Virus record (IMG/VR): IMGVR_UViG_3300019935_000055
Location: 1 to 28,742 of that record
From: a virus
Length of the DNA: 28,742 bases
Strand: one strand, 5' to 3'
Shown: in pieces, positions 1,467-28,215 of the stretch
Layout of the letters: the number at the start of each line of letters is the position of its first letter
How positions within the stretch are numbered: the stretch's first letter is position 1
Notes under the pieces: model-generated
Told to the model about the DNA's origin: nothing
The model's database searches: none
The model's input: the letters and a program-made list of their open reading frames with translations, nothing else
Translations under genes and position numbers: made by a program

Positions 1467-3301
1467 ACTTTTATTTTTACCTGTATTGCTTCTATATTAT
1501 CTATGATGTTCTCAAATTTATATACATGTCTCTTATATGTGTACTCTAACTCTAATAAACTGTAGTCACTGCCATTTTCTGTATATATATTTTTCTGTCC
1601 ACGGACAAAAGAGGGCGCGGATAATTCTTTGTATTGGTATTCATGAGACTTTAAAAAATGGATAGGGTGCTGCACTGTTGCCTGTCCTTCTTTTACTTCC
1701 ACGCGCTCGTTTTCTTCTTTTAACTCTGTTTCAATATACTGAATTTTAACGCTTTCTTTGCTTGTGTGCGTTATTTCTATGTACTCAGCGTCATAAAACG
1801 GCATTGTGTACACATACAGGGTGCTGCTTTCCTTGTCGTACTCGTGAAATATATTTATTTCTTTTTCGTCTGTCACAAGTAAATTATCGTATTCAATATT
1901 TAAGCAGTTTTCTGTATAGGAGAAGTCAAATATATTTATACTTTCCTGCGTTGCGATAGGGTAAGGGTAAGCGGCGACAAGTTCGCCATTGGGCGCACTT
2001 TGAAGCACAGCACCGCATAAGCCTAATAGCTCAGTTACAATATTGATTTTAGTATCTTTTTTAGAATACGAAAAAGGCGGTAATTGAAAATTTTCAATGC
2101 TAAATATTAATTGTAGGGGTTGGCAAATATGGGTTAATGCAGACTCAATGTCTACAGGCTCATTTTTCACTTGCGCTGTAATGCGTTCCTGTAATGCAAA
2201 GTAAGCAGGGCTTACAAATTTAGCTCCATAACTTATAAACCCCTCGTTATTTAATTTTTCTTTATTCAAAAAAACAAGTTTAAAAACATGCTCTTGAATA
2301 TAAAACTCTATTTCTTGGCGGCTTTTTAGCATGTCAAACAATAGAGGGTGCATAAACTTACTGTTTAGCGTCCACACATAGCTATCAATATCCGCCGACA
2401 AGTCGAAATCGACGAGAGGGAATTTTATGTTTTTAATAAGTATATAGCAGTCCTCCAGCACGAAAATATTTTCTATTTCTTTTACATAAACAGGTAATTT
2501 TAATGATGCGGTGATAGGTGTGTGCTGTAGGATATTGAATGGTAATTTTAACGATGTCGTGACAGGTTGCAGCACTGCAACAGGTAGTTTTAACGCGGTG
2601 GTCACAACATAATTATTAAACTCTAATTTTAATGCACTGGTTACAGGTGTGTACTGTAGTACTGTAACTGGTAGCTTTAACGCAGTTGTGACAGGTTGCA
2701 GTACTGCAACAGGTAGTTTTAACGCGGTGGTCACAACATAATTATTAAACTCTAATTTTAATGCACTGGTTACAGGTGTGTGTTGTAGAACATTAAATGG
2801 TAATTTTAATGCTGTAGTAACGGGCTGTAGTACTGATATAGGTAATTTTAACGATGTGGTAACGGATTGATTTACAGCTAATTTTAACGATGTTGTAACA
2901 GTTCCACGTATATGTACAGGTAATTTTAATGCAGTCGTAACAACATAATTATTAAACTCTAATTTTAACGCAGTTGTGACGGCTTTTAATGCTGTCCACT
3001 GCTGATCTAAGTGTAATGTATTGGTGATTACACTGGACGCTGTCCACTGCTGATCTAAGTGTAATGTATTGGTGATTACACTGGACGCTATCCACTGCTG
3101 ATCTAAGTGTAATGTATTGGTGATTACACTGGACGCTGCCCACTGTTGATCTAAGTGTAATGTATTGGTGATTACACTGGACGCTGCCCACTGTTGATCT
3201 AAGTGTAATGTATTGGTGATTACACTGGACGCTGCCCACTGTTGATCTAAGTGCAGCGCATTAACTGCAACCCATTTTTGATCAAGATACAGGTATGGCA
3301 T
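1463..3301 (-). CDS. Repeat-rich tail hub/tail-tip protein
   Basis: 612 residues in two parts. Residues 1 to about 290 are tandem repeats: five near-identical 16-residue units (LHLDQQWxASSVITNT) at residues 16-95, then about a dozen degenerate VTTALKLPV-type units of 13-16 residues. Residues from about 290 form a non-repetitive mixed domain (LEDCYILIKNIKFPLVDFDL onward) that looks like a tail hub or baseplate protein. Similar ALKLPV-type repeats occur, to my recollection, in tail-tip proteins of other transposable siphophages. It follows the tape measure by five genes and overlaps both neighbours by a few bases. A role in the central tail tip, with the repeats as an extensible stalk or receptor-contacting arm, is inferred. 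Confidence 0.6.
   Translation of the reverse strand: MPYLYLDQKWVAVNALHLDQQWAASSVITNTLHLDQQWAASSVITNTLHLDQQWAASSVITNTLHLDQQWIASSVITNTLHLDQQWTASSVITNTLHLDQQWTALKAVTTALKLEFNNYVVTTALKLPVHIRGTVTTSLKLAVNQSVTTSLKLPISVLQPVTTALKLPFNVLQHTPVTSALKLEFNNYVVTTALKLPVAVLQPVTTALKLPVTVLQYTPVTSALKLEFNNYVVTTALKLPVAVLQPVTTSLKLPFNILQHTPITASLKLPVYVKEIENIFVLEDCYILIKNIKFPLVDFDLSADIDSYVWTLNSKFMHPLLFDMLKSRQEIEFYIQEHVFKLVFLNKEKLNNEGFISYGAKFVSPAYFALQERITAQVKNEPVDIESALTHICQPLQLIFSIENFQLPPFSYSKKDTKINIVTELLGLCGAVLQSAPNGELVAAYPYPIATQESINIFDFSYTENCLNIEYDNLLVTDEKEINIFHEYDKESSTLYVYTMPFYDAEYIEITHTSKESVKIQYIETELKEENERVEVKEGQATVQHPIHFLKSHEYQYKELSAPSFVRGQKNIYTENGSDYSLLELEYTYKRHVYKFENIIDNIEAIQVKIKV
2496..2989 (-). repeat. Degenerate VTTALKLP repeats with a 129-bp higher-order period
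   Basis: About twelve in-frame degenerate units (VTTALKLPVAVLQP, VTSALKLEFNNYV and similar). A three-unit block recurs with a 129-bp (43-residue) spacing: a copy beginning near 2581 matches one beginning near 2710 almost base for base. This array is older and more diverged than the 48-bp array beside it. Confidence 0.9.
2990..3256 (-). repeat. 48-bp tandem repeat, five full copies plus a partial
   Basis: Five consecutive 48-bp units (3017-3256) with a partial sixth at 2990-3016, all in frame and coding 16 residues each. Copies are nearly identical; most differences fall at the codon after QQW, which reads GCA, ATA or ACA (Ala, Ile, Thr). The first 15 residues of the protein (MPYLYLDQKWVAVNA) are a diverged relative. 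Near-identity at DNA level points to recent expansion by slippage or recombination. Confidence 0.95.
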
Positions 3302-4340
3302 ATTCTAACGTCAACCGAAAACCATCATCAATAACACCAACACCCTGTTTTAGCTCTCTTTTTTCACAAATAGGTATGCATTCGTTAGGCTGCAATGTGA
3401 ATTCTAAAGGAGCACCCACGGTGTATTGTGCGAATGTAGCCCCCGTGGGCTCTGAGAATTGAGACGCAAGCGCGTTGGGTGCATTTGTTATGCCGTCGGA
3501 CGCTGTTCCTGCGTACAGGAGAATGTCGCACGTTTCGTGTACTGGACTTTCTGCAATATAAAGCTTACACACTTGTGTTTCTGCTGTTGTATTTTTTACA
3601 TAAAGCCATTTATAGCAAGCACTTTGCCCTTGCACGCTTTCCGTAAAAATATTATTAACAAAGGGGTTTATTGTTATGTTATACGTAGCGTCCGATTCAG
3701 GAAAATTGCCGTCGTGCTGCATCACAATACTATTATCATTTATCTGGATATTAAAATCTTTTGCAGATTCATCGGGTAGTACAGCAGCACCGAGTAACCG
3801 ACCTTGTGGGCTTGCGGGCTGTAATACTGTCTTTGTCAAAACAGTCCCTGTAGACTCTGTTGCAAGTATATACTCCCCTTCGCTGTTTTTATAGAATGCG
3901 TCCACATCACACGAGAATTCATTGTTGGGCTGTGTGGCTGCAACAACAAGCTCACACTGACCAGTACCGACGTGATTAACTGTTAAGCTATAAGAAGAAA
4001 AAAAGCTTTCTGCTTGACGCACAAACTCCTCTATTATTTCTGTCGCTTTTCTCGTTGAGTAAGGAATTTCTATGTCGTCAACATTTTGGAATTCTATATC
4101 TTTTATTTTTAAATTTAGCCTTACAAACCAATCTGTTGACCCCTGGTGAAAATTGAAACTTATTTTTTTTATTCCATCCGTGTATGCTTTATAGTCTAGC
4201 GTTGTACTCTCCTCCATGTTTGCGGAAGCATAAGCAACGCTTAGCCAGTCGGGCAAGCCTGTAACTGTCGCACCCTGAGCGTTTTGATCACCAATTTGCC
4301 CCCCCAAATATCCGCCGCCACTGCATTGTAAAAACATCAT
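3282..4340 (-). CDS. Hypothetical tail-tip structural protein
   Basis: 352 residues from the ATG at 4340 (MMFLQCSGGGYLGG), preceded by GGGAG; a TTG at 4358 in the same frame is an alternative. The N-terminus is Gly-rich, then an alpha/beta region (residues about 40-160) and a long beta-rich C-terminal half (SACYKWLYVKNTTAETQVCKLYIA). The C-terminal half resembles beta-sandwich virion domains, but no family is recognised. It overlaps the repeat-rich hub gene by about 20 bases. Tail-tip or appendage role inferred from position. Confidence 0.6.
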   Translation of the reverse strand: MMFLQCSGGGYLGGQIGDQNAQGATVTGLPDWLSVAYASANMEESTTLDYKAYTDGIKKISFNFHQGSTDWFVRLNLKIKDIEFQNVDDIEIPYSTRKATEIIEEFVRQAESFFSSYSLTVNHVGTGQCELVVAATQPNNEFSCDVDAFYKNSEGEYILATESTGTVLTKTVLQPASPQGRLLGAAVLPDESAKDFNIQINDNSIVMQHDGNFPESDATYNITINPFVNNIFTESVQGQSACYKWLYVKNTTAETQVCKLYIAESPVHETCDILLYAGTASDGITNAPNALASQFSEPTGATFAQYTVGAPLEFTLQPNECIPICEKRELKQGVGVIDDGFRLTLEYAIPVS

Positions 4341-4344
4341 TTTT

Positions 4345-4935
4345 TTAATCGCTCCCAAAAATTTCCGCTAATTTATTATTAATTTCTTGCTCATTTCCCA
4401 CGCCAGATAACGGCTTTATTTTTCCGTTTTCGTCATAATTCCCTTCATCATCGGGAATGTAAATATATAAGCTCTCTGAAATTCCGATATTTTCAATATT
4501 TTCTAAGTTTATAGGTAATACAATAAAGTCTCTATAGCCGTCCGTCATAGTGTTTAATTTTTTTATAATCGGGTGCATGTGCGCATTAAAAATTACGACA
4601 TTTTTAGCAAATTCTTTATTGTCTAATGCCTTTTTTATGTCCAAAAAAGACAGCATGGTGTATGTATTATTTTTATTGTCGCGAGCAACGGGATAAGCGT
4701 CCCAGAATTCGGCATTATATTCCGCCCCACGAGCAACAGAAACTTTTGTCCAATAACTATATAGCTCTTGTCTTGCTGAAAAAGTGGCAACAAGCCCAAA
4801 TGTGGCTATTGTTACGGGAGCGGATGAGAGATGCGTGTATGTAAAATTAAAAAGTCTGTATAACGCAACATCGGCAGAAAAAAAATTAACAGACTTGACA
4901 CGCATATACTTACGCGGCTTATATACACTATTCAT
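4345..4935 (-). CDS. Hypothetical tail-operon protein
   Basis: 196 residues from the ATG at 4935 (MNSVYKPRKYMRVKS), which overlaps the stop of the upstream gene (ATGAATAG); an ATG at 4959 would add eight residues and lengthen the overlap. Strand-rich centre (APVTIATFGLVATFSARQ), followed by a helical and acidic C-terminus. No transmembrane helix or catalytic motif seen. It sits among large structural tail genes; function not recognised. Confidence 0.6.
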   Translation of the reverse strand: MNSVYKPRKYMRVKSVNFFSADVALYRLFNFTYTHLSSAPVTIATFGLVATFSARQELYSYWTKVSVARGAEYNAEFWDAYPVARDNKNNTYTMLSFLDIKKALDNKEFAKNVVIFNAHMHPIIKKLNTMTDGYRDFIVLPINLENIENIGISESLYIYIPDDEGNYDENGKIKPLSGVGNEQEINNKLAEIFGSD

Positions 4936-6229
4936 TATGTATATTTTCCGTGTCAACATTTCCCAGCATGTCTATATATTTACTCGTTTTTACATGCTCA
5001 ACTTCCACATAACTATCACCATCGCCCGTCACTTTTTCCCGTTCACGCTCCTGATATATAACAACTTTTGGCAAGTCGTCCTTGCTTAATTCTGCAACAT
5101 GGACAGCAGCGGAAAACGACAGCGTTGCAGCACTATCGCCGTTCGTGCAAAGCACATCTATACTAGGTGATTGCACACTGGAAAAATTTATTTTTTTAAA
5201 AAGTTTATAGCGTTCTGTTTTACTGTCTTCAGTTTTTTCTATTTCATGGGTTATCAATGGGTGGGGTTTTGACTCTATAAAGTCGCCCGTGGCTTTTGAA
5301 TATATTGCGCTGCCCACAGGTTCTATAGAGCACGAAATACTATAAGGCTGTTTTAATTCCCCAGCGTCATAATATATTTCGTATTCGTCGTAACTGGTCT
5401 GATACTCCACAATAAGAGAACCATAAGCGCGCTCGGAACTGCGGAATGTATGCCCGCGCTCCTTATACAAGCTTTTCCCTAGACGGGGGTCACTGTATTT
5501 TATTCTTAGCCAATAATTTTCGCCTGTGCTGATATTGTCAGGGGGCTTGATAGAATTCCCGTGTATGTCTTTGAATTCTGTAGAGCTTAATACGGAAACA
5601 ACTGGATTATCATAATGGTATTTTATCGTTTTTTCTTTTTCCCCGTTAAATTTTAATGTTTCTCTTATGTATGTTGTTTTGCGCCCGTTGTGCTTTATTT
5701 GCTTGTCTGAATTTTCAGCATTTACAATGTATGTACGCTCAAACTTTTGAGAATAAAACTCGTAGGAAAGCTTGACGGCTGCAATATTCCCCTTATAGCC
5801 GTAGGGTGCTGAAACATTATTTTCTATGCTTATATCGCTAAGTCCTGCATACACTTTTATATTAGGCTTTGTCTCTTTTTTCTCCCCATCAATATAGTAA
5901 TGTGTAGGCGCATAAAGTCGCACTATTTGCCGCCCATATGATAACAATTGCAAAGGGGGTGTATAACGTGTGTCGTCTTGCATTTCCGCATTAAAATTAA
6001 GAAACACAACAGAGGTTTTATTATTTACAACACCTTCGGCTGTGGGTACAAACTGAGCAAAAGCCGCATCTTTTGCCGCTTGACTTGGCTCATCGTCTAG
6101 CGGGTAGTAAGGCAAGTACATAGCAGGTACACAGCGTTGTTTATCGCGCTCGTCTATGACAAGTTCCGCATTAAACGGCAAGTATTCGCTGCCTAGTGTT
6201 AAGGCAAGGCTTGTGCTAGCCAAAACCAT
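4928..6229 (-). CDS. Hypothetical large tail structural protein
   Basis: 433 residues from the ATG at 6229 (MVLASTSLALTLGSEYLPF). A start at 6277 would overlap the previous gene by 62 bases and is less likely. The start is short and hydrophobic, then long beta-rich sequence with many Tyr and charged residues (YEIYYDAGELKQPYSISCSI), like virion beta-sandwich or receptor-binding proteins. No enzyme motif seen. Its place after the tape measure and before the hub supports a tail-tip, baseplate or fibre role, by inference only. Confidence 0.6.
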   Translation of the reverse strand: MVLASTSLALTLGSEYLPFNAELVIDERDKQRCVPAMYLPYYPLDDEPSQAAKDAAFAQFVPTAEGVVNNKTSVVFLNFNAEMQDDTRYTPPLQLLSYGRQIVRLYAPTHYYIDGEKKETKPNIKVYAGLSDISIENNVSAPYGYKGNIAAVKLSYEFYSQKFERTYIVNAENSDKQIKHNGRKTTYIRETLKFNGEKEKTIKYHYDNPVVSVLSSTEFKDIHGNSIKPPDNISTGENYWLRIKYSDPRLGKSLYKERGHTFRSSERAYGSLIVEYQTSYDEYEIYYDAGELKQPYSISCSIEPVGSAIYSKATGDFIESKPHPLITHEIEKTEDSKTERYKLFKKINFSSVQSPSIDVLCTNGDSAATLSFSAAVHVAELSKDDLPKVVIYQEREREKVTGDGDSYVEVEHVKTSKYIDMLGNVDTENIHNE

Positions 6230-7523: not shown

Positions 7524-10468
7524 TAGGCAAGCCCTATACCTGTTGTCTTAAGAAAATCAACAAGGTTTTCTACGTTCTTTCTCTCGTCCCGCAACGTAGT
7601 ACGCCCACCCGATGAATTTTTTAAAATCAATTCCACAATATCGCGTGAACCCTTTTCGCCGCTTGCGTCAAAATTAGGAATATTTAATGCTCCACCTACT
7701 GGTAAAACAGCCCCCCCGTCTTGTCGGCGTTGCACAACAGAGGAGAGCATATTATTAACAGCACCTAAAGGCGCATAATTCAACATATTAAGTAATTCAT
7801 GGAATACACGCGCACGCTCTTTTTTTACGACAAATTCGCCCGCTTCCGCCAAGAGGGGAACTTTATCCCCCCCACCATAGCCGCCCAATTTTCCGCCGCT
7901 TAAAATGCTTTTAGCAGCAGCAAAAGAGAAGCCCACAAGCCCCCCCGCTTGCCTTGCTTCGACGTACTGCGTCTGGGCTTTTATATTTACTGTCTTGTCT
8001 GTCATAGAGTCTATAAGCGTTTGAAGTTCATTTATATTTTTTGTCGCAACGCTTGTATTAACATCTATTTGCAGTTTTTTAGCTTCACCACTTAGAGTGT
8101 TGATGCTTTCTTTTAGGCTTGCAGTTTGTTCTTTTTGCTTTTCCGCTGCTTTTTCTGCTGTTGCAATTTCTTCTTTTTTGCTCTCATTTAGCACCTGACT
8201 TGCCTGTTTAAATATAGCAATAGCCACCTTATTATCCCCCAGGCTTTCCGCCAAGGTTTGGGCTTGTTTTGCGAGTTCCTGCGTTTCTTCCGAGTCGCCC
8301 GAGTTGGCTGCAATGCGTGCTTTTCCAAGTGTTTCGAGTGCTTGCTTTTGCTTGTCAAGTTCGCGTTGATGTGCCGACATGCCCGCCTGTTGAAGTGCTC
8401 TAAGGCGGCTTTCTTGGTCTTGTTGTTCTGCTGCTAATGAGCGTCTAAGCCCCTTAACTTTTTGAACATAAGCACGCTCTTGTGCTTCACTTTTATTTAA
8501 TGCTGTTTTATTTTTATCGAGCACGGCTTGTATGTCCGCCAGTTTCTTTTGTCTTAATTCCAAGGACATTGCAGCGCGTTCATTATTAGAACTGGACTCT
8601 ATACCTTTTAACTTGCGTATAGCGGCGGCTTGTTTGTTTATTTCTTCAAAGCCACCTTGGTTAGTTATATTTAAATTTACATTTTTTAATTCGGCTTTTA
8701 GGTCTTTTATTTGCTGCTTTGTTTTATCTAATTCGGCATTATCGACCCCCGTACCAATACCGAATATTGAAGCCTCATCTAATGCGGATAATTCGGCATA
8801 AATGGCTTCTAATTGACTTAGGCGGCTTATGAGACTTTCACGTAATGATACAAGATCATTAGCGTCACCATTGCCAGCCTGTACCGCTGCTGCTGTAGCC
8901 TTAAATTTTTGTTGCTCTTGCGCCACGGCTTGCAATGTTTGTTTGTAGCGTTCACCTGCGTTGGTTGCCATGTCGGACGCTGTAGAATAGGCTGTATAAG
9001 CTTCTTTTACTGCATAAGCACTTGCCGCAGCCACTGCCAACGCGGCAAGCGGTACAGCCGCCGCAGCGGCTGCACTGGCAACGCCTGCGAGCATAGGCGT
9101 TAAAATACCCATTGCAGCACTAGCCGCCGTGGTTATTGCCACGCCCGCCGCTAATGCCCCCGCTAACGCCACCACACCCGCCGCTATACCCGCAAGAGCT
9201 GCGGAAATTTTAGGGTTTTCTTTTAAGAACCCAGCAAATTGTTTTATTAGTTTTGCAATGACAGACACAACACTGTTAACAGCATCAGATACCCCAGAAT
9301 CAATTACAGCAGACTGTAAAGAACGCCATGCCGCTTCAATTTGATCACCCGCGTTTAGATTGGAGTTTTTAAGCGTATCAGTTGCGCCCGCCAGGTCTTT
9401 CATTTTTGTTTTTGTTATATCAAGACTAAGGGCTGTTATATCTCCCAAATCTTCAAAGGGCGTGCCTAGTAGTTCGGCAGCAACGGATAACCTAACTGTA
9501 TCACTTTCTACATTATTTAATTTATCAATAATGTGCTGTACAGACTCCAGACCGCTCACCGCCCCACTATTGAGGTCGTTTATAAAGTCCTCAGCATCCA
9601 ACCCTATTTTTTTGTAAGCTTCCTTTGATGCATCTGTTAAAGCATCTGCAGTTCTTAAACGAAATTCTTTTATTAAATCCGGGAATTTATCCACGCCGAT
9701 ATTTCCCCCGACAACCTGCCCACTTGATAAAATACTGTAAAATTCTTCAGCACTTGCCCCCAAGCTTTCAAACTGTACGGAATACTCTAATATAGAATCT
9801 AAAAAATCACCTGATGCATCCAAGCCGTTTGCAAACCCCGACGCAATAAAGTCAGTCGCCTCTTTGCTGCTTAAGCCTAATTTTGTTGTAAGCTGCTGCA
9901 CGGAAAAAATGACTTTTTCAGAGTCCGCCTGATAAACTTTATTTAACCTTAGTGCTGTATCGCTAACGCTTTGTATATCAGTCTCTAAATGTTGGGCGGC
10001 TTTTCTTACTATGCCCGTGGTTTCTTCTAATGTTGCGGCATTAGATGCATCATTAAAAATATTTTTTGATATATCAAGTATTTCGCCCGCCTGCTCTTTG
10101 ACTTTCCCGCCCATGCTCTCCAACTGACTTAAGAGCTGACCCTCTTCTAATGCAGGCGTAACAACAAAACCTTGAAATGCATCTTTAAATCCGCCTGCTA
10201 TATCTGCGAACGTTTGCGCGATATCAAGGGCTGCGGCAAGGTTAAGCGGCATATTCTCAAGGCTATTATTGAGACTGTCCGCGCTTTTTTCTGCACCTTT
10301 TTCTGCTTTTTGGAGTTTAAAGAATTCCTCTATAAGTTCGGCAAGTTCGCGATCATCTAAATCTTCGAATTTTTTGCCCGCTTTCCCTAGGCTTCTTAAA
10401 AGGTCGTCTATTACGTCGCTTATATTGTCCTCAACAGAGAGCAATACTTTTAGCTCTTCCTCTGTCAT
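7523..10468 (-). CDS. Tail tape measure protein
   Basis: 981 residues, the longest gene here. Acidic coiled-coil N-terminus, a hydrophobic Ala-rich segment at about residues 420-490 (GIAAGVVALAGALAAGVAI), extended coiled-coil from about 500 to 820 rich in Gln, Lys and Glu, and a C-terminal GGLVGF...GGYGGGDKVPLLAEAGEFVVKK segment at about 840-880. That GGGD-VP-L-GEFVV signature is common in phage tape measures. It sets tail length and acts in DNA ejection. Its ATG overlaps the stop of the chaperone frameshift extension. Length is normal for a siphophage; no sheath gene is present. Confidence 0.93.
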   Translation of the reverse strand: MTEEELKVLLSVEDNISDVIDDLLRSLGKAGKKFEDLDDRELAELIEEFFKLQKAEKGAEKSADSLNNSLENMPLNLAAALDIAQTFADIAGGFKDAFQGFVVTPALEEGQLLSQLESMGGKVKEQAGEILDISKNIFNDASNAATLEETTGIVRKAAQHLETDIQSVSDTALRLNKVYQADSEKVIFSVQQLTTKLGLSSKEATDFIASGFANGLDASGDFLDSILEYSVQFESLGASAEEFYSILSSGQVVGGNIGVDKFPDLIKEFRLRTADALTDASKEAYKKIGLDAEDFINDLNSGAVSGLESVQHIIDKLNNVESDTVRLSVAAELLGTPFEDLGDITALSLDITKTKMKDLAGATDTLKNSNLNAGDQIEAAWRSLQSAVIDSGVSDAVNSVVSVIAKLIKQFAGFLKENPKISAALAGIAAGVVALAGALAAGVAITTAASAAMGILTPMLAGVASAAAAAAVPLAALAVAAASAYAVKEAYTAYSTASDMATNAGERYKQTLQAVAQEQQKFKATAAAVQAGNGDANDLVSLRESLISRLSQLEAIYAELSALDEASIFGIGTGVDNAELDKTKQQIKDLKAELKNVNLNITNQGGFEEINKQAAAIRKLKGIESSSNNERAAMSLELRQKKLADIQAVLDKNKTALNKSEAQERAYVQKVKGLRRSLAAEQQDQESRLRALQQAGMSAHQRELDKQKQALETLGKARIAANSGDSEETQELAKQAQTLAESLGDNKVAIAIFKQASQVLNESKKEEIATAEKAAEKQKEQTASLKESINTLSGEAKKLQIDVNTSVATKNINELQTLIDSMTDKTVNIKAQTQYVEARQAGGLVGFSFAAAKSILSGGKLGGYGGGDKVPLLAEAGEFVVKKERARVFHELLNMLNYAPLGAVNNMLSSVVQRRQDGGAVLPVGGALNIPNFDASGEKGSRDIVELILKNSSGGRTTLRDERKNVENLVDFLKTTGIGLA

Positions 10469-17748: not shown

Positions 17749-18915
17749 TTGTTTAATCTATTCGATAAAAAGAAAAAAGAGACGCAAAATGACAGCGGCG
17801 TATTTTCCATACAAAAGGAATCAATCGATGTAGGCGTAAATATTGATGATGGCATAGAATACCCCGTGTCAAATTTTTCCCTATATAGCCTGTATGATAT
17901 GAGTGTTGAGCACAGCCGATGCTGTCAAATCAAAGCAGAGGGGAGCACTGGAGGCGGGTTTGATACTGAAAAAGACAGCCAACTTTTAGAGCTTGAAAGA
18001 CTAAGTCACACAGATCTGAATGCGGCATCACTGGACTATCAGGTTTATGGTAATGCTTATTTTGAAGTCGTAAAAGCACCAAGGGGGCAAATATTAAAAA
18101 TAAGACACTTGCCCGCACTTACAATGTATAGACACAGAAATGCAAAAGACTTTATACAACTTACATTTACACCAGACGGTAATGAAATAAAAACAGTTAT
18201 AGAGGGAGAGTATATTATACATTTACGTACTCCTTGCCCTTTGGGTTCTTTTTACAGTAAGCCATCTTGGTATGCATCGCATTTATTATGTGAGCTTGCC
18301 CACAAGGCAATGGAATATAATATAAAATTCATGGAGAACAATGCCCGCCCTGAATTTGCAATTATGACCAAGGGGAGTCCATTAAACCGCGCACAAAAAA
18401 ACAACATCATTGATTTTTTTAAACCATTTCGCGGGGTGAAAAATGCGGGCAAAGCATTGTATTTACACCAGCATGATACAGAGGGGGGGATTGAATTTAA
18501 GGACTTATCAAAAAATGAGCAAGGCAGCTTTTTAAAAGTACTGGACGCTGTCCGCGACCGCGTACCCATAGCGCATGGTGTACCCCCTCGTATGCTGGGA
18601 ATTATTGCGGCGGGTTCGCTTGGTGGTGGTAGCGAGGTTATAGGGCAAATGCACACATTCGAGCAACTCACATTAAACCCCATAAAGCGGCAATTACTTG
18701 CCCAATTAGGCGACGTTTTCAGTAGCTTAAAAATTAAGCCCCAAGACGTAAAATTTAAGCCTATTGACCTAACCCCGCCTGATAACAGTCAACTTTCTCA
18801 GAATGTACAAACTGGAATATTAACACAAGAAGAAGCCCGCGAAATGCTTAATAAATCGCAACCATCAAATGATATTTATGATGAGATTATAGCTAAATTC
18901 ATGGGGGGCTTTTAA
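17749..18915 (+). CDS. Portal protein, PBSX/P2 family
   Basis: 388 residues starting at TTG with AAAAGGA about eight bases upstream; no in-frame ATG gives a sensible start. Residues include YGNAYFEVVKAPRGQILKIR, the hallmark IAHGVPPRMLGIIAAG, and a C-terminal segment TGILTQEEAREML, all typical of the PBSX/P2-Q family of portals. It forms the dodecameric ring through which DNA is packaged and ejected. The terminase gene follows after one base. Confidence 0.88.
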   Translation: MFNLFDKKKKETQNDSGVFSIQKESIDVGVNIDDGIEYPVSNFSLYSLYDMSVEHSRCCQIKAEGSTGGGFDTEKDSQLLELERLSHTDLNAASLDYQVYGNAYFEVVKAPRGQILKIRHLPALTMYRHRNAKDFIQLTFTPDGNEIKTVIEGEYIIHLRTPCPLGSFYSKPSWYASHLLCELAHKAMEYNIKFMENNARPEFAIMTKGSPLNRAQKNNIIDFFKPFRGVKNAGKALYLHQHDTEGGIEFKDLSKNEQGSFLKVLDAVRDRVPIAHGVPPRMLGIIAAGSLGGGSEVIGQMHTFEQLTLNPIKRQLLAQLGDVFSSLKIKPQDVKFKPIDLTPPDNSQLSQNVQTGILTQEEAREMLNKSQPSNDIYDEIIAKFMGGF

Positions 18916-18916
18916 T

Positions 18917-20485
18917 ATGCCCATGAAATACACGCAAGCACAAAAGGCATATGTAGAGGAGAAGCTATTAAAAGGCTCTACAGTAAAGGAAATTTCAGAA
19001 GACACAGGGATAACAGAGCGCACAATCAGAACTTGGTATAAGGCAAAACACATCAAGGGTTTACAAGAAAACAGGCAGCAAACAATAATAAATCTTGAAA
19101 AGCGAATAAAAGAGCTATCAGGGAAGAAAGGGGGGGATTCTGCAAAAGACTTGGCAATGCTCACAAACTCACTAAAAAGAATACAGACAACAACAATAAA
19201 AGCCCGCCCTGTCCCTGTTGTTCAAAAGTCGATAAACGAGGACATATTAAAAAGAGTTTTAGCACCTGAGTATGGTTTATATAAATATCAATCGGATTAT
19301 ATCAAATCAGATTCCCGTTTTAATATTGTCAACAAAAGTAGACAAATCGGCTTTACATGGGTTGTTGCACTAAAGGCACTTATAAAAGCAGTAAGTGGCA
19401 GAAAACAGAATGTATTAAGTGCAAGTGAGCGACAGGCAAATATTGTCAAAAAATACATTTTAGATCATGCAAAACGACTAAACATTGACGTAAAAAAACA
19501 AGAAAACGGCTTAAGCGTTGGCGGCGTAGATATAAATATCCTCCCCTGCAATATTATTACAATTCAAGGGCTTGTAGGGGATATTATACTTGATGAATTT
19601 GCATGGGCTAGGAGGCAAAAGGAATTATTTAATGCAATTGTCCCAGCTATTACGACGTGTAATGGGACAATTGACATTATCAGCACGCCAAGCGTGGCGG
19701 GGAATTTCTTCTATGAGATCATGACAAATCAAAGGGGAAAATACGACAGCTACGAAAGACACACTATCACTATATTGGACGCAATAGATCAAGGTTTGCC
19801 GATTTCCGATAAAGAGCTGGTAGAACTAAAAAGCCTTTTTGATTCAAGTAGCTGGGATATGTTGTACATGTGTGCATGGGCAATGGATGGAGATGCATTA
19901 TTAAGCTGGGACTTATTGCAAAGTGCTGCAACATTGGAGGCAGAAAATACCTTATACACAAAAAATATTTGTTTCCTAGGTGTGGATGTTGGGCGTAAAA
20001 ATGACCTTTCCGCCTTTGCGCTTGTTGAACAACTAAAAGTGGACAAATTCGCGTTAAAATTCATAAAAACATATAAAAATATAAGGTTTGAAAAGCAAGA
20101 GGAAAAAATACAAGAGCTTATGCATAAGTATAATGTATATAGCGCAAATATAGACAAAACAGGCATAGGTATGCAGCTTGCGGAAAGCCTAGAAAACAAC
20201 TATGACAACGTGCAGGGGCGACATTTTACACTCAAGTTTAAGCAACGTTTAGCAAAGAACTTATTATTTATGCTAGAACGTGGAATGCTCGCACTACCTA
20301 GCGATAGTTTTTTATTATCTAAACTCCACAGCGTCAAGAAAAAAGCCACACCATCGGGAAAAGACATAACCTATGATGCGGATCGTGACAGTCAGGGACA
20401 TGGGGATGAATTTTGGGCGTTGGCGTTGGCTGTCGATAATTTAGCCAGTGAGGGCGCATTGTGCGAAGCTGAAATTTTAGGCTAA
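18917..20485 (+). CDS. Terminase large subunit with N-terminal HTH
   Basis: 522 residues. An N-terminal helix-turn-helix at about 17-43 (KEISEDTGITERTIRTWYKA) suggests fused DNA recognition, as in P2 gpP. ATPase: a deviant Walker A, KSRQIGFT, at 140-147 and Walker B, DIILDEFAW, at about 222-230. Nuclease: GVDVGRKND with D357, NIDKTG with D413, HGDEFWALALA with D497. The nuclease block resembles Mu gp28-type terminases. No separate small terminase gene is seen. The HTH may take its role, but that is inferred. Confidence 0.88.
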   Translation: MPMKYTQAQKAYVEEKLLKGSTVKEISEDTGITERTIRTWYKAKHIKGLQENRQQTIINLEKRIKELSGKKGGDSAKDLAMLTNSLKRIQTTTIKARPVPVVQKSINEDILKRVLAPEYGLYKYQSDYIKSDSRFNIVNKSRQIGFTWVVALKALIKAVSGRKQNVLSASERQANIVKKYILDHAKRLNIDVKKQENGLSVGGVDINILPCNIITIQGLVGDIILDEFAWARRQKELFNAIVPAITTCNGTIDIISTPSVAGNFFYEIMTNQRGKYDSYERHTITILDAIDQGLPISDKELVELKSLFDSSSWDMLYMCAWAMDGDALLSWDLLQSAATLEAENTLYTKNICFLGVDVGRKNDLSAFALVEQLKVDKFALKFIKTYKNIRFEKQEEKIQELMHKYNVYSANIDKTGIGMQLAESLENNYDNVQGRHFTLKFKQRLAKNLLFMLERGMLALPSDSFLLSKLHSVKKKATPSGKDITYDADRDSQGHGDEFWALALAVDNLASEGALCEAEILG

Positions 20486-20501
20486 AGAGAAAAGGAATAA
20501 C

Positions 20502-20918
20502 ATGGCAAAGAAAACAATAAACATGCATAAAATCGCCCTGCTGGTGGGCGCAAAACTTGTGGAAGTAACAACAAGACAGGAAAATATACCATTCCAAACT
20601 GGAGACCTTAGAAAATCTATAACGTTCCAAACTGAGCAACAGGGGAATACTAGCGTTATAGTTGTGGGTAGTAATTTACCTTACGCACGCGCTGTGCACG
20701 ACGGACGACCCGCGTTAACCATCTACGCTAAAAATGGGGGGGCGTTATTTTGGGCGGGGGCGGCGCATCCTGTAAAGAAAGTACAGCAGCCTGCGCGTCC
20801 CGCCAACCCATTTATAACGCGATCAATTGACATTATGCAACGTGAAGGACTGCAATTTGTGGCAAAAGAAGTGCGTAAACAAGTGGAAAAGTCTATAAAA
20901 GACAGAATGAAAGATTAG
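20502..20918 (+). CDS. HK97-gp10-like/virion morphogenesis protein
   Basis: 138 residues with AAAAGGA before the ATG. The motifs TGDLRKSI, SNLPYARAVHDG and LFWAGAAHPVKKVQQPARP followed by ANPFI match the HK97 gp10 head-tail joining family in the usual order. It acts in tail attachment or neck completion. It ends exactly where the opposing DciA-like gene ends, with no base and no terminator between them. Confidence 0.82.
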   Translation: MAKKTINMHKIALLVGAKLVEVTTRQENIPFQTGDLRKSITFQTEQQGNTSVIVVGSNLPYARAVHDGRPALTIYAKNGGALFWAGAAHPVKKVQQPARPANPFITRSIDIMQREGLQFVAKEVRKQVEKSIKDRMKD

Positions 20919-21377
20919 TTACAGGCTATTAAGTAAACGCTCTAAACGAGCGCGTATTGCTTCATTTTTAACACTTGCGGCGGTATTGAGTGCATCTGCT
21001 TTTGTGGCGGATGTTGGTGGGATCGGCTTTGGTTTTAAAGGTGCAGTATATTTAGGGGCGTTTTCCAATTCATGCATTTTTAAGCTCTTGACTATTTTAA
21101 TGCTTTTCAGGCTTGCATATTTACTATTTTTTCTTAACTCCTTTTCAAGCTGAGGAATAATAAAACGCAGTCGTGTATATATAGCATTATTATCTGTACA
21201 CAGTATAAAAACTTTATTTTTTGCCCCCTGCATATGCACTTGATTAGCTATTTTCTCACTCATTATGCGAGCTATAACGCCGCGCACGTCTTGCAAATAT
21301 TCTGCGTAAACCTTTGCTAAGCCCATAACGCGCATTATTTTTGCGTCCTGACCTAGGGAATCATTTATATTTTTCAT
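20919..21377 (-). CDS. DUF721/DciA-like protein
   Basis: 152 residues. Residues 54-98 (KVFILCTDNNAIYTRLRFII then PQLEKELRKNSKYASLKSIK) match the DUF721/DciA core: a buried strand, a short helix with RLRF, then a strand after a helical turn. A Pro-rich linker leads to PPTSATKADALNTAASVKNE and a final Arg/Leu helix, which fits the conserved C-terminal patch of gammaproteobacterial DciA. DciA loads the replicative helicase DnaB in most bacteria. The gene overlaps the minor head gene by four bases (ATGA) and is the last of the leftward early transcript. Family call by eye; phage helicase loading is inferred. Confidence 0.65.
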   Translation of the reverse strand: MKNINDSLGQDAKIMRVMGLAKVYAEYLQDVRGVIARIMSEKIANQVHMQGAKNKVFILCTDNNAIYTRLRFIIPQLEKELRKNSKYASLKSIKIVKSLKMHELENAPKYTAPLKPKPIPPTSATKADALNTAASVKNEAIRARLERLLNSL

Positions 21378-22228
21378 GATTCAGCAACCGTGACAGTTCT
21401 ACACTTAAAATGATAGGGAGGCAAGCCCACATTATCGCCGCGCTCTAATGCCTCATTTAATTCTTTTTCGTCTTTAAACATGCGCCAAGCGGCGTTACTT
21501 GCGGGCATATTCCTTTGCTCTATGGCTTTTAAATAGTCTTTCTTTTGCTTACTAAGTGCACTAACAGCTATTACTGTATCATGCATTTTTCGGCAAATAT
21601 CCGTCGTTGTTTCGCTCAAATGTGCACGAATGCGGACGCTCTCAATTTCTGCATCCTCATAGGCGGCAACACGCCCCAATTCCCGCGTTTTAGTAGCGGT
21701 ATGGTCTGCAAGCATAGTCCAATAATGTTGCCCCCTGTTACCTAAGCCCGCAAAATCATTGGCGAACCTTTCCGCTAGTTGCGCACGTGTCATGCCTTTT
21801 TCAAAATAATCTTCTAACGCCTTATCAAACAAGTTTTTAGTGTATGAATTCCAGCTATTCCCCACCCAATACATAGACCCTTTTTGTATAATATTCAGCG
21901 CATGGCGATCCGCTTTATTAAAACCAATATCCACATCATTATGCATTTCTTCAAGCGGGAGAGCGGATTGTTTAGCCTCCTTATATAACCCCTCTGTTAA
22001 CCTTAAAACGGACTTAAATAAAAGCCGCTGCATTGCTTTTTTACCCATCGCTTTTTCAAGTACAAGCAATATACTGTCTTTTTCTGAGCTTGTTACTTTT
22101 TTATTCTCGTCTTTCTTCTTTTTTAAATAACCTAGCACCCCGCGCAACGCTGACTGATGCGCCGACCCGTGCGCACGGGTGTAGGCTTGCTTTAGTAATT
22201 CCTCAAATTGTTCTGTTGTCATTTTCAT
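21374..22228 (-). CDS. Minor head protein, SPP1-gp7/Mu-F-like
   Basis: 284 residues. The central TATKTRELGRVAAYEDAEIE, the later HLSETTTDICRKMHD and the C-terminal LPPYHFKCRTVTV match the SPP1 gp7/Mu F head-morphogenesis family. The N-terminal half is helical. The protein joins the procapsid interior near the portal. It is coded on the strand opposite to portal and terminase, coupled to the zinc-ribbon gene (ATGA) and to the DciA-like gene (ATGA), so it is transcribed with the early/middle genes and not with the other head genes. Confidence 0.8.
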   Translation of the reverse strand: MKMTTEQFEELLKQAYTRAHGSAHQSALRGVLGYLKKKKDENKKVTSSEKDSILLVLEKAMGKKAMQRLLFKSVLRLTEGLYKEAKQSALPLEEMHNDVDIGFNKADRHALNIIQKGSMYWVGNSWNSYTKNLFDKALEDYFEKGMTRAQLAERFANDFAGLGNRGQHYWTMLADHTATKTRELGRVAAYEDAEIESVRIRAHLSETTTDICRKMHDTVIAVSALSKQKKDYLKAIEQRNMPASNAAWRMFKDEKELNEALERGDNVGLPPYHFKCRTVTVAES

Positions 22229-22434
22229 AAAAATAAATCCAGTTGATCACTGTCTGCTTTTTTCACTTCTTCACCCACAGACTTATAAAATAACTCCAAA
22301 CCAATTGTTAAAAATTTATATCCACATTGCTTGCATTCTCTATAACGTAATACAGTATTTTTATACTGGACTGGAGAGAGTCGCGTGGCATACACATATG
22401 TATTATTACTCCGACAGTTTTTACATTCTGACAT
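22225..22434 (-). CDS. Zinc-ribbon protein, possible late regulator
   Basis: 69 residues with two CxxC knuckles (C4-C7 CKNC; C34-C37 CKQC) separated by 26 residues, giving a four-Cys zinc ribbon, followed by LTIGLELFYKS and an acidic tail. AAAGGGG lies before the ATG. Size resembles Ogr/Delta-type late activators of P2-like phages and Mu Com, but the spacing is not a clear match to either. Between GemA and the minor head gene; a regulatory role is plausible. Confidence 0.7.
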   Translation of the reverse strand: MSECKNCRSNNTYVYATRLSPVQYKNTVLRYRECKQCGYKFLTIGLELFYKSVGEEVKKADSDQLDLFL

Positions 22435-22438
22435 GTGA

Positions 22439-22849
22439 CTATTCCCCTTTTTCTTTGTTATATTTTTGCCAGTTTATTAAGCCTGTTATGACATCGCTTG
22501 CTTGTCTATTTGTAAGCCATGCAACATTATCAATATTTACTGTACGCTTCACAAAAGCCTTGAATTGTGGGCTATCCATACCATCAGACCACCCCATGCC
22601 AATGCATAAATCTTTTATATAGTTTTTTTGCCATTGGGTAGGTTTATTTTTATTCTTTTCTTTTACAAGTAAGTCTATATATTCACATATATTTATAAGC
22701 GTTTTTTCTGTTGCTGATTTACAGCTATTTATAGCCCATTTGGATAAAATACCTCTATATTGTTCATCGGATAAATTTGCCTGTTTTTTTAAAATATGCA
22801 CTTTTGCTAATAATTTCTGTCTTTTATCTTTTGCCATTTTTGCCACCAT
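22439..22849 (-). CDS. GemA-like (Mu gp16, DUF1018) protein
   Basis: 136 residues from the ATG at 22849; an ATG at 22837 (MAKDKRQKLL), preceded by GGTGG, is an equally good start. LLAKVHILKKQANLSDEQYR followed by GILSKWAINSCKSATE and TQWQKNYIKDLCIGMGWSDG matches the GemA/gp16 family of Mu-like phages. GemA affects host gene expression and DNA topology in Mu. It lies directly after an intrinsic terminator, so it may be expressed from its own promoter or by readthrough. Confidence 0.8.
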   Translation of the reverse strand: MVAKMAKDKRQKLLAKVHILKKQANLSDEQYRGILSKWAINSCKSATEKTLINICEYIDLLVKEKNKNKPTQWQKNYIKDLCIGMGWSDGMDSPQFKAFVKRTVNIDNVAWLTNRQASDVITGLINWQKYNKEKGE

Positions 22850-22857
22850 ATGATCAA

Positions 22858-22881
22858 AAAAAGGGCTTTCATGCCCTTTTT
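22858..22881 (-). terminator. Intrinsic terminator upstream of gemA
   Basis: Stem AAAAAGGGC/GCCCTTTTT with a six-base loop (ATGAAA on the minus strand) and a run of Ts, between the zinc-ribbon gene at 22888 and the GemA-like gene. It works for minus-strand transcripts and, by symmetry, could also work in the plus direction. Confidence 0.8.
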
Positions 22882-24077: not shown

Positions 24078-24623
24078 TTATTTAGGATTATTAGTCTTAA
24101 TATAAAACTCGTCTTTCTTCTCAACGCTGCAACATTGGCGAACAACAGCGGGCAGTTGCTCGTAATACTTTTTGATTGCAGCTTTGTCAGGCTTTGCTTT
24201 GTAAATAAGGCAATCATGTTGCCCTGCGTCCTCCAGTGTGCGGACTAACATTTGTTCACTCTCCACACTTAAAGCTGTGGAAGCTTTCCAACCAATAACA
24301 CCATTACGCAGGGCTTTACTTTTCTTGCCGTCCTGCAATAACTCCCCTTTGTTTTTCTCACAATACTCACTAACAACGTCATACAAGGCATTTGACTTTA
24401 CAGAGAGCAAGCCCAGCTCGTCGTCGAATTTCGCAACGGCTTCAAGTGCAGTTTGCACAGCCTTTGTTTGTAAAGCATCGTAACGCGCTGCAACTTCTGC
24501 ATATTCACGCAAAACAATTTCTAATTCTTCAACGCTTTTAATATTTTCAATAGTAACGGGCTTTAATTCTCGCCCTTTGCGTGCACATTTAATAGCCTGC
24601 ACGACTTCTCTGTAATTACCCAT
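24078..24623 (-). CDS. gam: Gam-like host-nuclease inhibitor / DNA-end protector
   Basis: 181 residues, the usual length (Mu Gam 174). The block VVSEYCEKNKGELLQDGKK, then VIGWKASTALSVESEQMLVR and LEDAGQHDCLIYKAKPDKAA matches Mu Gam from its CEANRDEL segment onward (ending KAAIKKYYEQLP). Gam binds double-strand ends and shields linear phage DNA from RecBCD-type nucleases. The ATG has AAAGGTGG upstream. It sits after MuB as in Mu. Confidence 0.87.
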   Translation of the reverse strand: MGNYREVVQAIKCARKGRELKPVTIENIKSVEELEIVLREYAEVAARYDALQTKAVQTALEAVAKFDDELGLLSVKSNALYDVVSEYCEKNKGELLQDGKKSKALRNGVIGWKASTALSVESEQMLVRTLEDAGQHDCLIYKAKPDKAAIKKYYEQLPAVVRQCCSVEKKDEFYIKTNNPK

Positions 24624-24635
24624 ACTGCACCACCT

Positions 24636-24974
24636 TTAAATAAAATCAGTCAAATCAACAGGACGCTCTACGCTAAAATCAATTAGCATGTAACGCTCTG
24701 ATCGCTCCAGCCATTCCTCACCAGAAAATCGAACCATGTAACCATCGACGTTGTATAACTCACTTTCTAAATTCGTATTTAAACATGAGCGTGTGAAGCT
24801 TAAAGCCTGTAAATTTTCAGCAACATACACGGGGACAGTTACATTTTTTGCACGACTCAAGTTAAAAAAATTCGCTGCTATACATACGTCCACAAATTGC
24901 TGTATTTGCTTTATGTAGCTTGCATGTCGTTCTACATGCAGAGAAAAATCAAACGCGTTTTGTTCGCTTTTCAT
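24636..24974 (-). CDS. Hypothetical early protein between muB and gam
   Basis: 112 residues, starting MKSEQNAFDFSLHVERHAS, with a central Arg/Cys stretch (NVTVPVYVAENLQALSFTRS). The ATG shares a base with the TAA of MuB (TAATG), so the two are coupled. No motif identified. In Mu several small non-essential genes lie in this interval. Confidence 0.65.
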   Translation of the reverse strand: MKSEQNAFDFSLHVERHASYIKQIQQFVDVCIAANFFNLSRAKNVTVPVYVAENLQALSFTRSCLNTNLESELYNVDGYMVRFSGEEWLERSERYMLIDFSVERPVDLTDFI

Positions 24975-25747
24975 TAGCCCAGCTCCTTAGCAGCCGCAGC
25001 AACCAAATCAGTTGTTAATTTTTCAAATGTGGATGGGTTAGACTCCATTAAACGCTTGCACGCTGTCGTTAATTCCGCAGCACGACCCCACAAACCGCCC
25101 GAAACCTTTAAAAATAAAGCCGCTGTGCTTTTGGTGGGCTTTGTATCGAAGTTTGGCAAAATAAAATACTGTACGCATTCCTCTAAACTTTCGACAGGCT
25201 TTAACTCCAAATGCTTTGCACCTATACGGCGGCTTAACTGCTGCAAATATACGCCACTTTTTCCCACAAACTTCTGTTCAAAAATTTGTGTGCCTAGCAA
25301 CACAATAACCGCCCCGCACTCGTCGGACAAATAGCGCAAAGCCTCAAATTCCAACCACCCCAAGTGATTACATTCATCTATTAGAAAAATTTCATTCTCA
25401 ACACGAGACTGTAAAAATGTTATAGAGGAGTCAAAGCCACCCGAACCCGTACCCCCAAAACGCTCAGCTAGTTTATTAAATAGCGTTTTACGTCGCATAC
25501 CTGAATATGCACATATGCGGACACCGTCGAAAATTTTGGCAAGTGCATAGCATGTGTGAGTTTTACCGCTACCGGGCAAGCCGTGAATCTTTGCCATGCG
25601 CCCGTGCCCGTCTGTTGCTGTCGCCTTGACAAGAGCCACAGCCGCGTTTAGCTGCTGTGTTTGTAGAACGTCGCCCACTGGTGTACTTATTAGCTTTATA
25701 GCGGGCTGCTGTTTGTTCTGTGTTTGTGTTTTTGCTATACTATTCAT
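24974..25747 (-). CDS. MuB-like AAA+ ATPase, transposition target selector
   Basis: 257 residues. Walker A GLPGSGKT at 56-63, Walker B IFLIDECNHL at 120-129, sensor LLGTQ near 150 and LSRRI near 171. MuB binds DNA as an ATP-dependent filament, brings target DNA to MuA and activates it. It is shorter than Mu B (312) and lacks an obvious N-terminal HTH. It is preceded by an 89-base gap after MuA that holds a weak hairpin. Confidence 0.9.
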   Translation of the reverse strand: MNSIAKTQTQNKQQPAIKLISTPVGDVLQTQQLNAAVALVKATATDGHGRMAKIHGLPGSGKTHTCYALAKIFDGVRICAYSGMRRKTLFNKLAERFGGTGSGGFDSSITFLQSRVENEIFLIDECNHLGWLEFEALRYLSDECGAVIVLLGTQIFEQKFVGKSGVYLQQLSRRIGAKHLELKPVESLEECVQYFILPNFDTKPTKSTAALFLKVSGGLWGRAAELTTACKRLMESNPSTFEKLTTDLVAAAAKELG

Positions 25748-25836: not shown

Positions 25837-27966
25837 TTAATCATCATCTTCTTCACCCCACTCAAAATCAGGCAAACCCTGCCCATCCTCTGGCAGCCAC
25901 TGGCTAACCTGCTGCTTTTTATTCTTACCTATTGAATCATCAATAATTTTTGCCCCTTCTTCTATGGCTTTTGCCATTTTTTCCGTATCACCTGCGAAAT
26001 CAATCCGCAAACCTTTTGGCGTTTCTACGTCATCGGGCAAGTTCATTGCTTTTACCTCGTCCAACAAACTCAGTCTATCTATGTTCTTTTTGCGGTCTTT
26101 TATGACACGTTGTAATTTTTTATTGCGCCGCGCTTGTTCCGCCGCCCCACTTGAGCTAAGGAATGCATGTTTCTCGTCTTCTTTTGCGACACATAAAAGC
26201 GCGTCACCCTCAAATACAAAAACCATTTTAGGATCATGACTTGGGTAGCGTATACGTAACTTACGCCCTGTATAAGCTAACAAAGCATCACTATAAAATT
26301 TCTGACCGTTATAATTCACATATCCCCGATCAATAACCCGTTCATCTTCAACGGAAAACGCTAATAATAAATGCTCGTACTGTATCCCTGTTGCTTTCCA
26401 GCCCTCATCAATAAACTGTTGCAGTTTTGCATTAGGACTCATGCCGTCAAGCGTTCCCTTTTGCTCCATATTGTGATAAAAGCGTAATTGTGTATCGAGC
26501 GCATCCTGCATTGCTTGCTCATCACCTTGAAAAGTTGGGGCAGCTTTTCCTAGATGATGTATTTTTTTATTCATGCGATCACCGCCATGATAGCCATCCA
26601 GCATCCCGTTAAACCCTTGCAAAACAGAAAAAAGCCCCTCGATAGGTTTAGCTGCGGAATTGTAAGGACGGGCGCGGTGAACATGATCCCCGTCAAGCGA
26701 ATATTCAAAACCCAGATCACTACTCTCTGCAAGCTTTGCTAAACTATTGAAAGCGTTTATCATTTCGCTCCACTTGTATTCCGATCCATTATCCAAATAC
26801 AGCCGGCGCGGTAGCCCCCATGATTCGCACATACTGGCAAAGCTTGCCGCAATATGTTTGCGTGTAACCCCTTCACCTTTCTTTAATACAACCATTGTTA
26901 TATACAATCTGTTCGTGGCTATATCCTGCCAAGCCACCAGCTTAGGATAAACAACCGACCCATCATCACGATGCATAGCGATATCGAGCGGGTGAACGTC
27001 GCCAACGATTATATCCATCGGTTTATACATATCTCTTTTCCGTTGAATACGCGGCAAATGTTTATCATAAAACTTTTTCGCGTCTTTACTATCTATCGCC
27101 AATAGGCTGTATTCCTCTTTGTCGCGCTCTACATAATGCCGTGTAAGCTTGCACAAAGCTTGCACAGCCTCCACATTTAAACCCGCCTCGACGGCTGTTA
27201 TCTGCGCTAATTTAGCACTAGCAATAGCTGAGCATTTCACATACCCCGTCACACCTTCAGCCCAAAGAGAGCGCACATACTTTTTAATTTCTTTCTCTAC
27301 ATCTTGTGCTTTTTCTAAGCCCAATGTGTCAATAAATGCCTTATCCCATTTTCGAGAAATCAAAGCCCGAGCTGTTCCCTTGCTCTTGTTGGGTTTTCTT
27401 ACCAATGCGTCAAAGCCACCGTTTTTATACAACTCTATCCATCTATACACACTTGCTTTAGAAACACCATGCTTTTCAGAGAGCAATAAAACAGCCTGTG
27501 TATACATTTTTGAACCAGTCGGAAATTCTGTAATATCCTGCACTATCTTATTTCTGAACTGTGCGCGCTCAATTTCTTCACGCTCTAATATAGTTAGCTT
27601 AACTTCACCAAGAGCGGGGAGCGCGACAGCTTGCGGCATAGCTTCGATAACAGTTTGCTCTTGCTCTTTCACTGCTACCGCAACAGAAGCCACAGCCGCC
27701 GCCGTTGCTTTTTTCTGCACCACTGGAGTGGAAGCAGAAACAGGAACAGGAACGAGAGCAGAAAAGCATTTTTCTTGTAAGTCTATGGGGAGACTGTTTA
27801 TATTAACGTCCAGCCTTTGCTGCCCCTTATCATTTACGCTCTGTATCACATCCAGCTCACATTTACGCCAATGTCCGCGCTTTAACGCACGCTGTATTAT
27901 TCGCTTATTAACACCTGCTAGCTCAGCAAGCTCTGAGCTTGTTATATATCTAGCTTCTTCAATCAT
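25837..27966 (-). CDS. MuA-type DDE transposase
   Basis: 709 residues. N-terminal winged-helix region at 6-60 (TSSELAELAGVNKRIIQRAL), a low-complexity Val/Ala linker at about 80-115, a second HTH at about 155-200 (GVSKASVYRWIELYKNGGFD), then the RNase-H core with GDVHPLD (D323), YLDNGSEYK (D392) and KPIEGLF (E443). Order and spacing match Mu A (D269, D336, E392). A beta-barrel and an acidic C-terminal tail (GLPDFEWGEEDDD) follow. It cuts phage ends and joins them to target DNA. The Ner-like gene stops one base before its ATG. Confidence 0.95.
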   Translation of the reverse strand: MIEEARYITSSELAELAGVNKRIIQRALKRGHWRKCELDVIQSVNDKGQQRLDVNINSLPIDLQEKCFSALVPVPVSASTPVVQKKATAAAVASVAVAVKEQEQTVIEAMPQAVALPALGEVKLTILEREEIERAQFRNKIVQDITEFPTGSKMYTQAVLLLSEKHGVSKASVYRWIELYKNGGFDALVRKPNKSKGTARALISRKWDKAFIDTLGLEKAQDVEKEIKKYVRSLWAEGVTGYVKCSAIASAKLAQITAVEAGLNVEAVQALCKLTRHYVERDKEEYSLLAIDSKDAKKFYDKHLPRIQRKRDMYKPMDIIVGDVHPLDIAMHRDDGSVVYPKLVAWQDIATNRLYITMVVLKKGEGVTRKHIAASFASMCESWGLPRRLYLDNGSEYKWSEMINAFNSLAKLAESSDLGFEYSLDGDHVHRARPYNSAAKPIEGLFSVLQGFNGMLDGYHGGDRMNKKIHHLGKAAPTFQGDEQAMQDALDTQLRFYHNMEQKGTLDGMSPNAKLQQFIDEGWKATGIQYEHLLLAFSVEDERVIDRGYVNYNGQKFYSDALLAYTGRKLRIRYPSHDPKMVFVFEGDALLCVAKEDEKHAFLSSSGAAEQARRNKKLQRVIKDRKKNIDRLSLLDEVKAMNLPDDVETPKGLRIDFAGDTEKMAKAIEEGAKIIDDSIGKNKKQQVSQWLPEDGQGLPDFEWGEEDDD

Positions 27967-28215
27967 TTAGCTACTCCCTCCATTATTTTCTAGCTCGGCA
28001 AAAAAGGAGAATCCAACCGTTTCCTCTAAACCTATAACAACGTTATTCGCAACCGTCCCCTCAGCTGGATAGCATCCATTTTTTATTGCTCGTCGTATAC
28101 TTGTATCCACAGTTGCCGCGCTAAAGCCGTTTTTTATAGCCCAGCTTCTTAATGTATAACGTTCACCATGCAGCGCGCGCCTTATATGCGCAACACTTAC
28201 ACATGCATCCAACAT
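27967..28215 (-). CDS. Ner-like early regulator
   Basis: 82 residues with a probable helix-turn-helix (RYTLRSWAIKNGFSAATVDT then SIRRAIKNG) and an acidic Gly/Ser C-terminus. The G-rich stretch GGGGGG stands before the ATG. Ner in Mu is a small DNA-binding protein that turns down early transcription and the repressor gene. Position as first leftward gene, directly before the transposase and opposite the repressor, fits that role. Sequence similarity to Mu Ner is limited. Confidence 0.75.
   Translation of the reverse strand: MLDACVSVAHIRRALHGERYTLRSWAIKNGFSAATVDTSIRRAIKNGCYPAEGTVANNVVIGLEETVGFSFFAELENNGGSS

Follow-up and report, generated by a model that had tools for sequence, protein, structure and literature searches.

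Most bacteria possess DciA in place of DnaC (PMC5109545), and the two proteins use a common binding site on DnaB (PMC9912922). DciA of V. cholerae contacts the LH-DH collar of DnaB through its C-terminal hairpin, and binding is abolished when the hairpin is lost (PMC9912922). The founding paper of 2016 described dciA as 'almost exclusively genomic', with a single mobile case, in Streptomyces, and the neighborhood of secA and lpxC is the established site of the gene in beta- and gammaproteobacteria (PMC5109545). Loader replacement has been told as a one-way process, in which phages carry DnaC or DnaI and DciA is the resident chromosomal gene (PMC5109545). For phage Mu in E. coli, strand transfer is followed by disassembly of the transpososome and then by PriA-dependent loading of DnaB from the DnaB-DnaC complex (PMC3334882). 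The locus presented here bears on the supply of DnaB to Mu-type replication in bacteria devoid of DnaC, of which there are many.

The stretch of DNA analyzed (the window), an IMG/VR record of 28.7 kb, belongs to a Mu-type transposable phage, as the earlier note had recognized, with a MuA-type transposase, a MuB-type ATPase, Gam and GemA all matched. The leftward cluster, in the right part of the window, starts with a small HTH-like gene (27967-28215) and continues with TnpA, the MuA-like transposase (25837-27966, minus strand; phrog_310, E=2.4e-58; PF09299), TnpB, a MuB-like AAA+ protein (24974-25747, minus; phrog_296, E=4.2e-17; PF13401), the Mu Gam homologue (24078-24623, minus; PF07352, E=1.7e-18) and several small genes. 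The GemA homologue (22439-22849, minus; PF06252, E=1.1e-10) then opens a unit comprising a 69-aa zinc-ribbon protein (22225-22434, minus; PF22811, E=4.6e-8), a 284-aa minor head protein similar to Mu F (21374-22228, minus; phrog_115, E=3e-7; PF04233 weak) and, lastly, dciA. Portal, P2-like terminase and a gp10-like neck gene are transcribed in the opposite direction; the last of these, a convergent HK97-gp10-like gene (20502-20918, plus; PF04883, E=3.1e-8; phrog_5, E=6e-13), has a stop that abuts dciA. Homologues of F were found in 28 related phage loci at identities of up to 46%, and the order tnpA-tnpB-gemA-(Zn)-F is kept in most of them, the zinc-ribbon protein between gemA and F also occurring in related phages. 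This protein carries an NrdR-like ribbon and is possibly a Com-like regulator. TnpA, TnpB, Gam, GemA and the F-like gene are thus shared with Mu and related transposable phages; whereas Mu relies on the host's PriA and DnaB-DnaC (PMC3334882), the window phage has its own dciA. A scan of 20 proteins from the transposition side and the head module recognized no further helicase loader and no initiator.

The dciA gene (20919-21377, minus strand, ATG to TAA) encodes a highly basic protein of 152 aa, whose pI of 10.04 equals that reported for VcDciA (PMC9865707). Its KH-like/DUF721 domain (residues 25-97; 21087-21305, minus), delimited by a Pfam match over residues 25-95 and by the model described below, includes VFILCTDNNAIYTRLRFI at residues 56-73. 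A Pro/Lys-rich linker with the motif APLKPKPIPP (residues 98-119; 21021-21086, minus; pLDDT low at 100-119) leads to a C-terminal helical hairpin (residues 120-152; 20922-21020, minus), the predicted DnaB-binding element. The ATGA overlap with the upstream F-like gene is present at 21374-21377, as previously described, the stop adjoins the convergent gene ending at 20918, and the base composition (GC 0.38) is the same as that of the neighboring genes.

Membership of the DciA family follows from nearly every sequence and fold feature amenable to testing. The protein matches Pfam PF05258 (DciA/DUF721) with E=1e-6 and 29.3 bits, above the curated cut-off of 24. No other Pfam family was matched, NCBIfam gave nothing, and the matches in PHROGs were at chance level. 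A host profile was built from 29 chromosomal DciAs, selected by PF05258, from bacteria carrying related prophages; PF05258 was detected at E<=0.1 in 44 of 50 such genomes, in 41 of them above the cut-off. Against this profile the window protein scored 51.2 bits (E=1.8e-13, residues 30-150), while the best of 10,000 shuffled sequences reached 13.1 bits. At the sequence level, the match is thus far beyond chance and takes in the C-terminal tail beyond the Pfam domain, in agreement with the DUF721 core and conserved C-terminal patch that had been read from the sequence. Split in two, the KH part (22 bits) and the C-terminal part (26.1 bits) each match the host profile alone. A search of the window and the phage loci (21,103 ORFs in all) with the same profile returned only the window protein and one protein of a second phage contig, L190 (E=1e-5). 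A further gammaproteobacterial profile, 'gg', gives the window protein 80 bits and is biased, having been built from genes found via the phage profile; the PF05258-chosen set is therefore the one quoted.

The reciprocal search led to the same family. A profile of the two phage proteins matched in 148 of 369 gammaproteobacterial genomes, nearly always in single copy and often over the full length, and most of the 30 loci fetched from these matches showed secA and/or lpxC motifs. Searched against the PDB, it ranked V. cholerae DciA (8a3v, the DnaB-DciA crystal) first and over the full length (E=0.0018), a match that reached 3e-15 once five chromosomal DciAs had been added to the profile.

An AF2 model of the window protein, computed from a two-row alignment (mean pLDDT 68), consists of a helix (4-38), two strands (48-53 and 56-61), a second helix (64-82) and a third strand (92-97), and this alpha-beta-beta-alpha-beta order is that of the KH-like (DANL) N-terminal fold. 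At the C-terminus, helices 123-133 and 139-151 form a hairpin, preceded by the Pro-rich linker at low confidence. In a PDB fold search, VcDciA took ranks 1 and 2 (best E=3.6e-5, 8a3v) and the D. radiodurans DciA domain rank 5, so that the structural comparison proposed in the earlier note also points to DciA. Over the whole chain the TM-score reaches only 0.45, a low value to be expected from a flexible linker and a domain-swapped target. No match at E<=1e-3 was obtained with the model in a viral fold library.

Residues of known function were mapped through a protein from a Caulobacter MAG, on which the published positions were placed by motif spacing. Leu163, Leu167 and Leu170, required in Caulobacter DciA for DnaB binding (PMC9825169), correspond to I141, L145 and L148 in the window protein and to L117, V121 and I124 in L190. 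Arg106, required for ssDNA binding (PMC12547741), corresponds to E80 and K63, respectively, and the ssDNA-binding L119 to I93 of the window protein. Since the Arg106 column is variable among chromosomal DciAs (R 19, Q 11, K 8, E 3), E80 and K63 neither support nor exclude loading.

Sequence profile, reciprocal search, fold and functional residues together confirm the assignment: the product of the window gene is a complete DciA of the chromosomal type found in beta- and gammaproteobacteria. With the V. cholerae protein it shares the KH-like domain, the Pro-rich linker, the C-terminal hairpin, the leucine-type contact positions and the basic pI. It differs from chromosomal DciAs in its low identity to those sampled (at most about 26%), in the glutamate at the Caulobacter R106 position and in its genomic site, which is in a phage, between F and gp10 and coupled to gemA-F, rather than at the typical (non-defining) chromosomal position between secA and lpxC. 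DnaC/DnaI, which are AAA+ proteins, and lambda P would share its expected task of setting the host's DnaB on DNA on behalf of the phage, but Pfam finds no AAA+ domain in the window protein, and both sequence and fold searches return DciA. A known family is found here in a carrier where it was not previously known. That such a gene had not been described for Mu-like phages, as the earlier note suspected, is consistent with the open-licence literature, in which no report of a phage-borne DciA was found; subscription papers are mostly outside this coverage.

The gene is rare among phages. About 200 related loci (phages and prophages) were gathered by transposase-based searches, those in named genomes belonging mainly to alpha-, beta- and gammaproteobacteria, and dciA was present in two of them: the window phage and L190, the one further carrier that the search among relatives suggested earlier has yielded. 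A tblastn search of 50,697 phage records with the window, L190, Thiotrichales and alphaproteobacterial DciAs gave no match, and PF05258 found only L190 among 95 related viral records. In viral_contigs, a peptide-pattern search for close relatives of the window protein returned only L190's own contig, and a degenerate DNA pattern for RLRF[IM]xPxLEK returned that contig and two chance matches. No PHROG corresponding to DciA was found. Two near-hits, PHROGs 30915 and 10441, were considered as hidden DciA families and taken as chance, given that dciA is common in gammaproteobacterial genomes, whereas of 185 such genomes the first matches just 1 and the second 7. As to the host, no close prophage was detected in 369 gammaproteobacterial genomes (best transposase 44%), and neither a tRNA nor an Rfam match was available as a clue.

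L190, a contig of 14.3 kb, belongs to a distinct transposable phage whose portal is of the Mu type (PF06074, 4e-108). The dciA of this phage (126 aa) follows Gam on the transposition-side strand, grouped with TnpA, TnpB, GemA and Gam and facing the virion genes, among them F and portal, on the other strand. In both phages, dciA thus closes the transposition-side cluster and faces virion genes, and because the F of L190 is on the opposite strand, what recurs is an association with the transposition/replication side rather than with F. Against PF05258 alone the L190 protein scores 18.8-20.2 bits, under the Pfam cut-off, so that its putative membership of the family rests on the full-length profile; its model (pLDDT 58) is too uncertain for a fold search. 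In a tree, the two phage proteins are placed on long branches within the beta/gamma part and are not grouped together, but a single clade for them is not rejected (p-AU 0.24), so that the tree is compatible with one capture of dciA or with two. The L190 gene is bracketed by identical 22-nt palindromic REP-like repeats (GTCACTCCCGCGCAAGCGGGAG; 9141-9162 and 9829-9850 of that contig, 688 nt apart), which may be the mark of an inserted cassette; a third copy with 2 mismatches is located at 13518.

The proposed tie of the window gene to the leftward early transcript holds in part. The best promoter-like site, TTGACA-18-TATGAT (28307-28278, minus; 11/12, a consensus match only), is located upstream of the whole cluster and its small HTH-like gene and is likely the leftward early promoter, and the ATGA overlap couples dciA to the gene before it. 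However, an intrinsic-terminator-like hairpin directly before gemA (22858-22881, minus; GGGC-ATGAAA-GCCC followed by T7; folding z-score -2.6), read as GGGCATGAAAGCCC-T7 between a 94-aa gene and gemA, interrupts this path, so that dciA belongs to a gemA-F-dciA unit and its early expression is not assured. A second such hairpin occurs in the leftward cluster at 23674-23657 (minus), and the two suggest that the cluster is divided between an early transcript for tnpAB-Gam and another for gemA-Zn-F-dciA. Consequently, the coupling of dciA to gemA-Zn-F is firm, whereas that to tnpAB is only conditional.

The best explanation of these observations, which we consider probable, is that a captured chromosomal-type DciA loads host DnaB at transposition forks. 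The gene would have been captured from a bacterium and retained by a Mu-type transposable phage. Strand transfer by TnpA would leave forked intermediates at the phage ends, the C-terminal hairpin of the phage DciA would bind the LH-DH collar of the host's DnaB, and its basic KH domain would hold the single strands of the fork. With DnaB set on the fork, replicative transposition could proceed independently of the amount or control of the host's loader, and the step replaced would be the one performed for Mu by DnaC and PriA in E. coli. We infer binding, loading, timing and need from the identity of the protein and its surroundings, and on these grounds a role in supplying replicative transposition with a DnaB loader is plausible. 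The position of the L190 gene on the transposition-side strand, apart from F and portal, argues for a role on the DNA side and against one in the virion. Transposition in these phages does not require dciA, as shown by its presence in only two of about 200 loci. Against a loader role, the terminator-like hairpin separates dciA from tnpAB, the gene is tied to F, which is usually expressed late, and E80 replaces the Arg106 that Caulobacter DciA needs for ssDNA, albeit at a position variable among chromosomal DciAs.

Phages often target DnaB, and the phage DciA may instead be a host-takeover factor that competes with the host's DciA for DnaB or strips DnaB from oriC, so that initiation on the host chromosome falls and the helicase is freed for the phage, any loading activity being secondary or absent. 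The well-kept DnaB-binding hairpin and hydrophobic positions, together with E80 in place of the ssDNA-binding Arg106, are in line with such a function; a pure competitor would need little beyond the hairpin, yet the whole protein is kept, including the KH domain and its basic charge, and we regard this reading as unlikely. It is also improbable that the gene is accessory cargo (a moron), that is, a loader placed in a variable slot at the end of the operon, aiding the lysogen or making up for a host loader that is weak or has been replaced, and having no specific part in phage replication. Relatives hold a different gene for 120-130 aa in the slot after F, and the rarity of dciA and the repeats flanking it in L190, as for an inserted cassette, leave room for cargo. 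Set against this are the tight packing of the window gene between a 4-nt overlap upstream and an abutting stop downstream, its neighbor-like base composition, and the fact that two phages with different virion modules keep dciA in a similar place.

That the product is a neck or head-completion protein merely resembling DciA, an alternative raised in the earlier note, has very little probability. Coupling to the F head gene and contact with the gp10-like neck gene are what this idea has in its favor, but no structural PHROG or Pfam family matches the protein, the neck protein is the neighboring gene at 20502-20918, sequence, fold and reciprocal searches all return DciA, and the L190 gene has no link to virion genes.

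A phage with a full DciA means that the ancestral loader is phage cargo as well, and suggests that some phages bring it along to copy their own DNA. More tentatively, transposable phages may have recruited DciA, perhaps more than once, for their own replisomes at transposition forks in DnaC-less bacteria, and may also be able to move dciA between bacteria; this would be the counterpart of the known phage-borne spread of DnaC/DnaI that displaced DciA. The window phage offers a natural system in which to ask whether DciA can load DnaB at a transposition fork, and its protein a divergent DciA for mechanistic work.

Other features of these genomes concern their general organization. In the window, portal, P2-like terminase (with an HTH domain) and gp10-like neck gene (17749-20918, plus) form a plus-strand island flanked by genes on the minus strand, so that the head module is divided in an unusual way; in relatives, too, gp10 and terminase are found opposite F or beyond the transposase. 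The left-end ORF (1-537, minus) has a WYL-domain match (PF13280, E=9.5e-5). In L190, the transposase is the C-terminal part of a 1192-aa ORF (1601-5179, plus) with a long extra N-terminal region. Where the window has dciA, the after-F slot of relatives (L167, 17066-17431; L105, 16736-17113; L182, 10281-10658; and others) encodes a conserved protein with the pattern H..RSA.E..RD.L...Q.AELD.VDAYW and no Pfam match.
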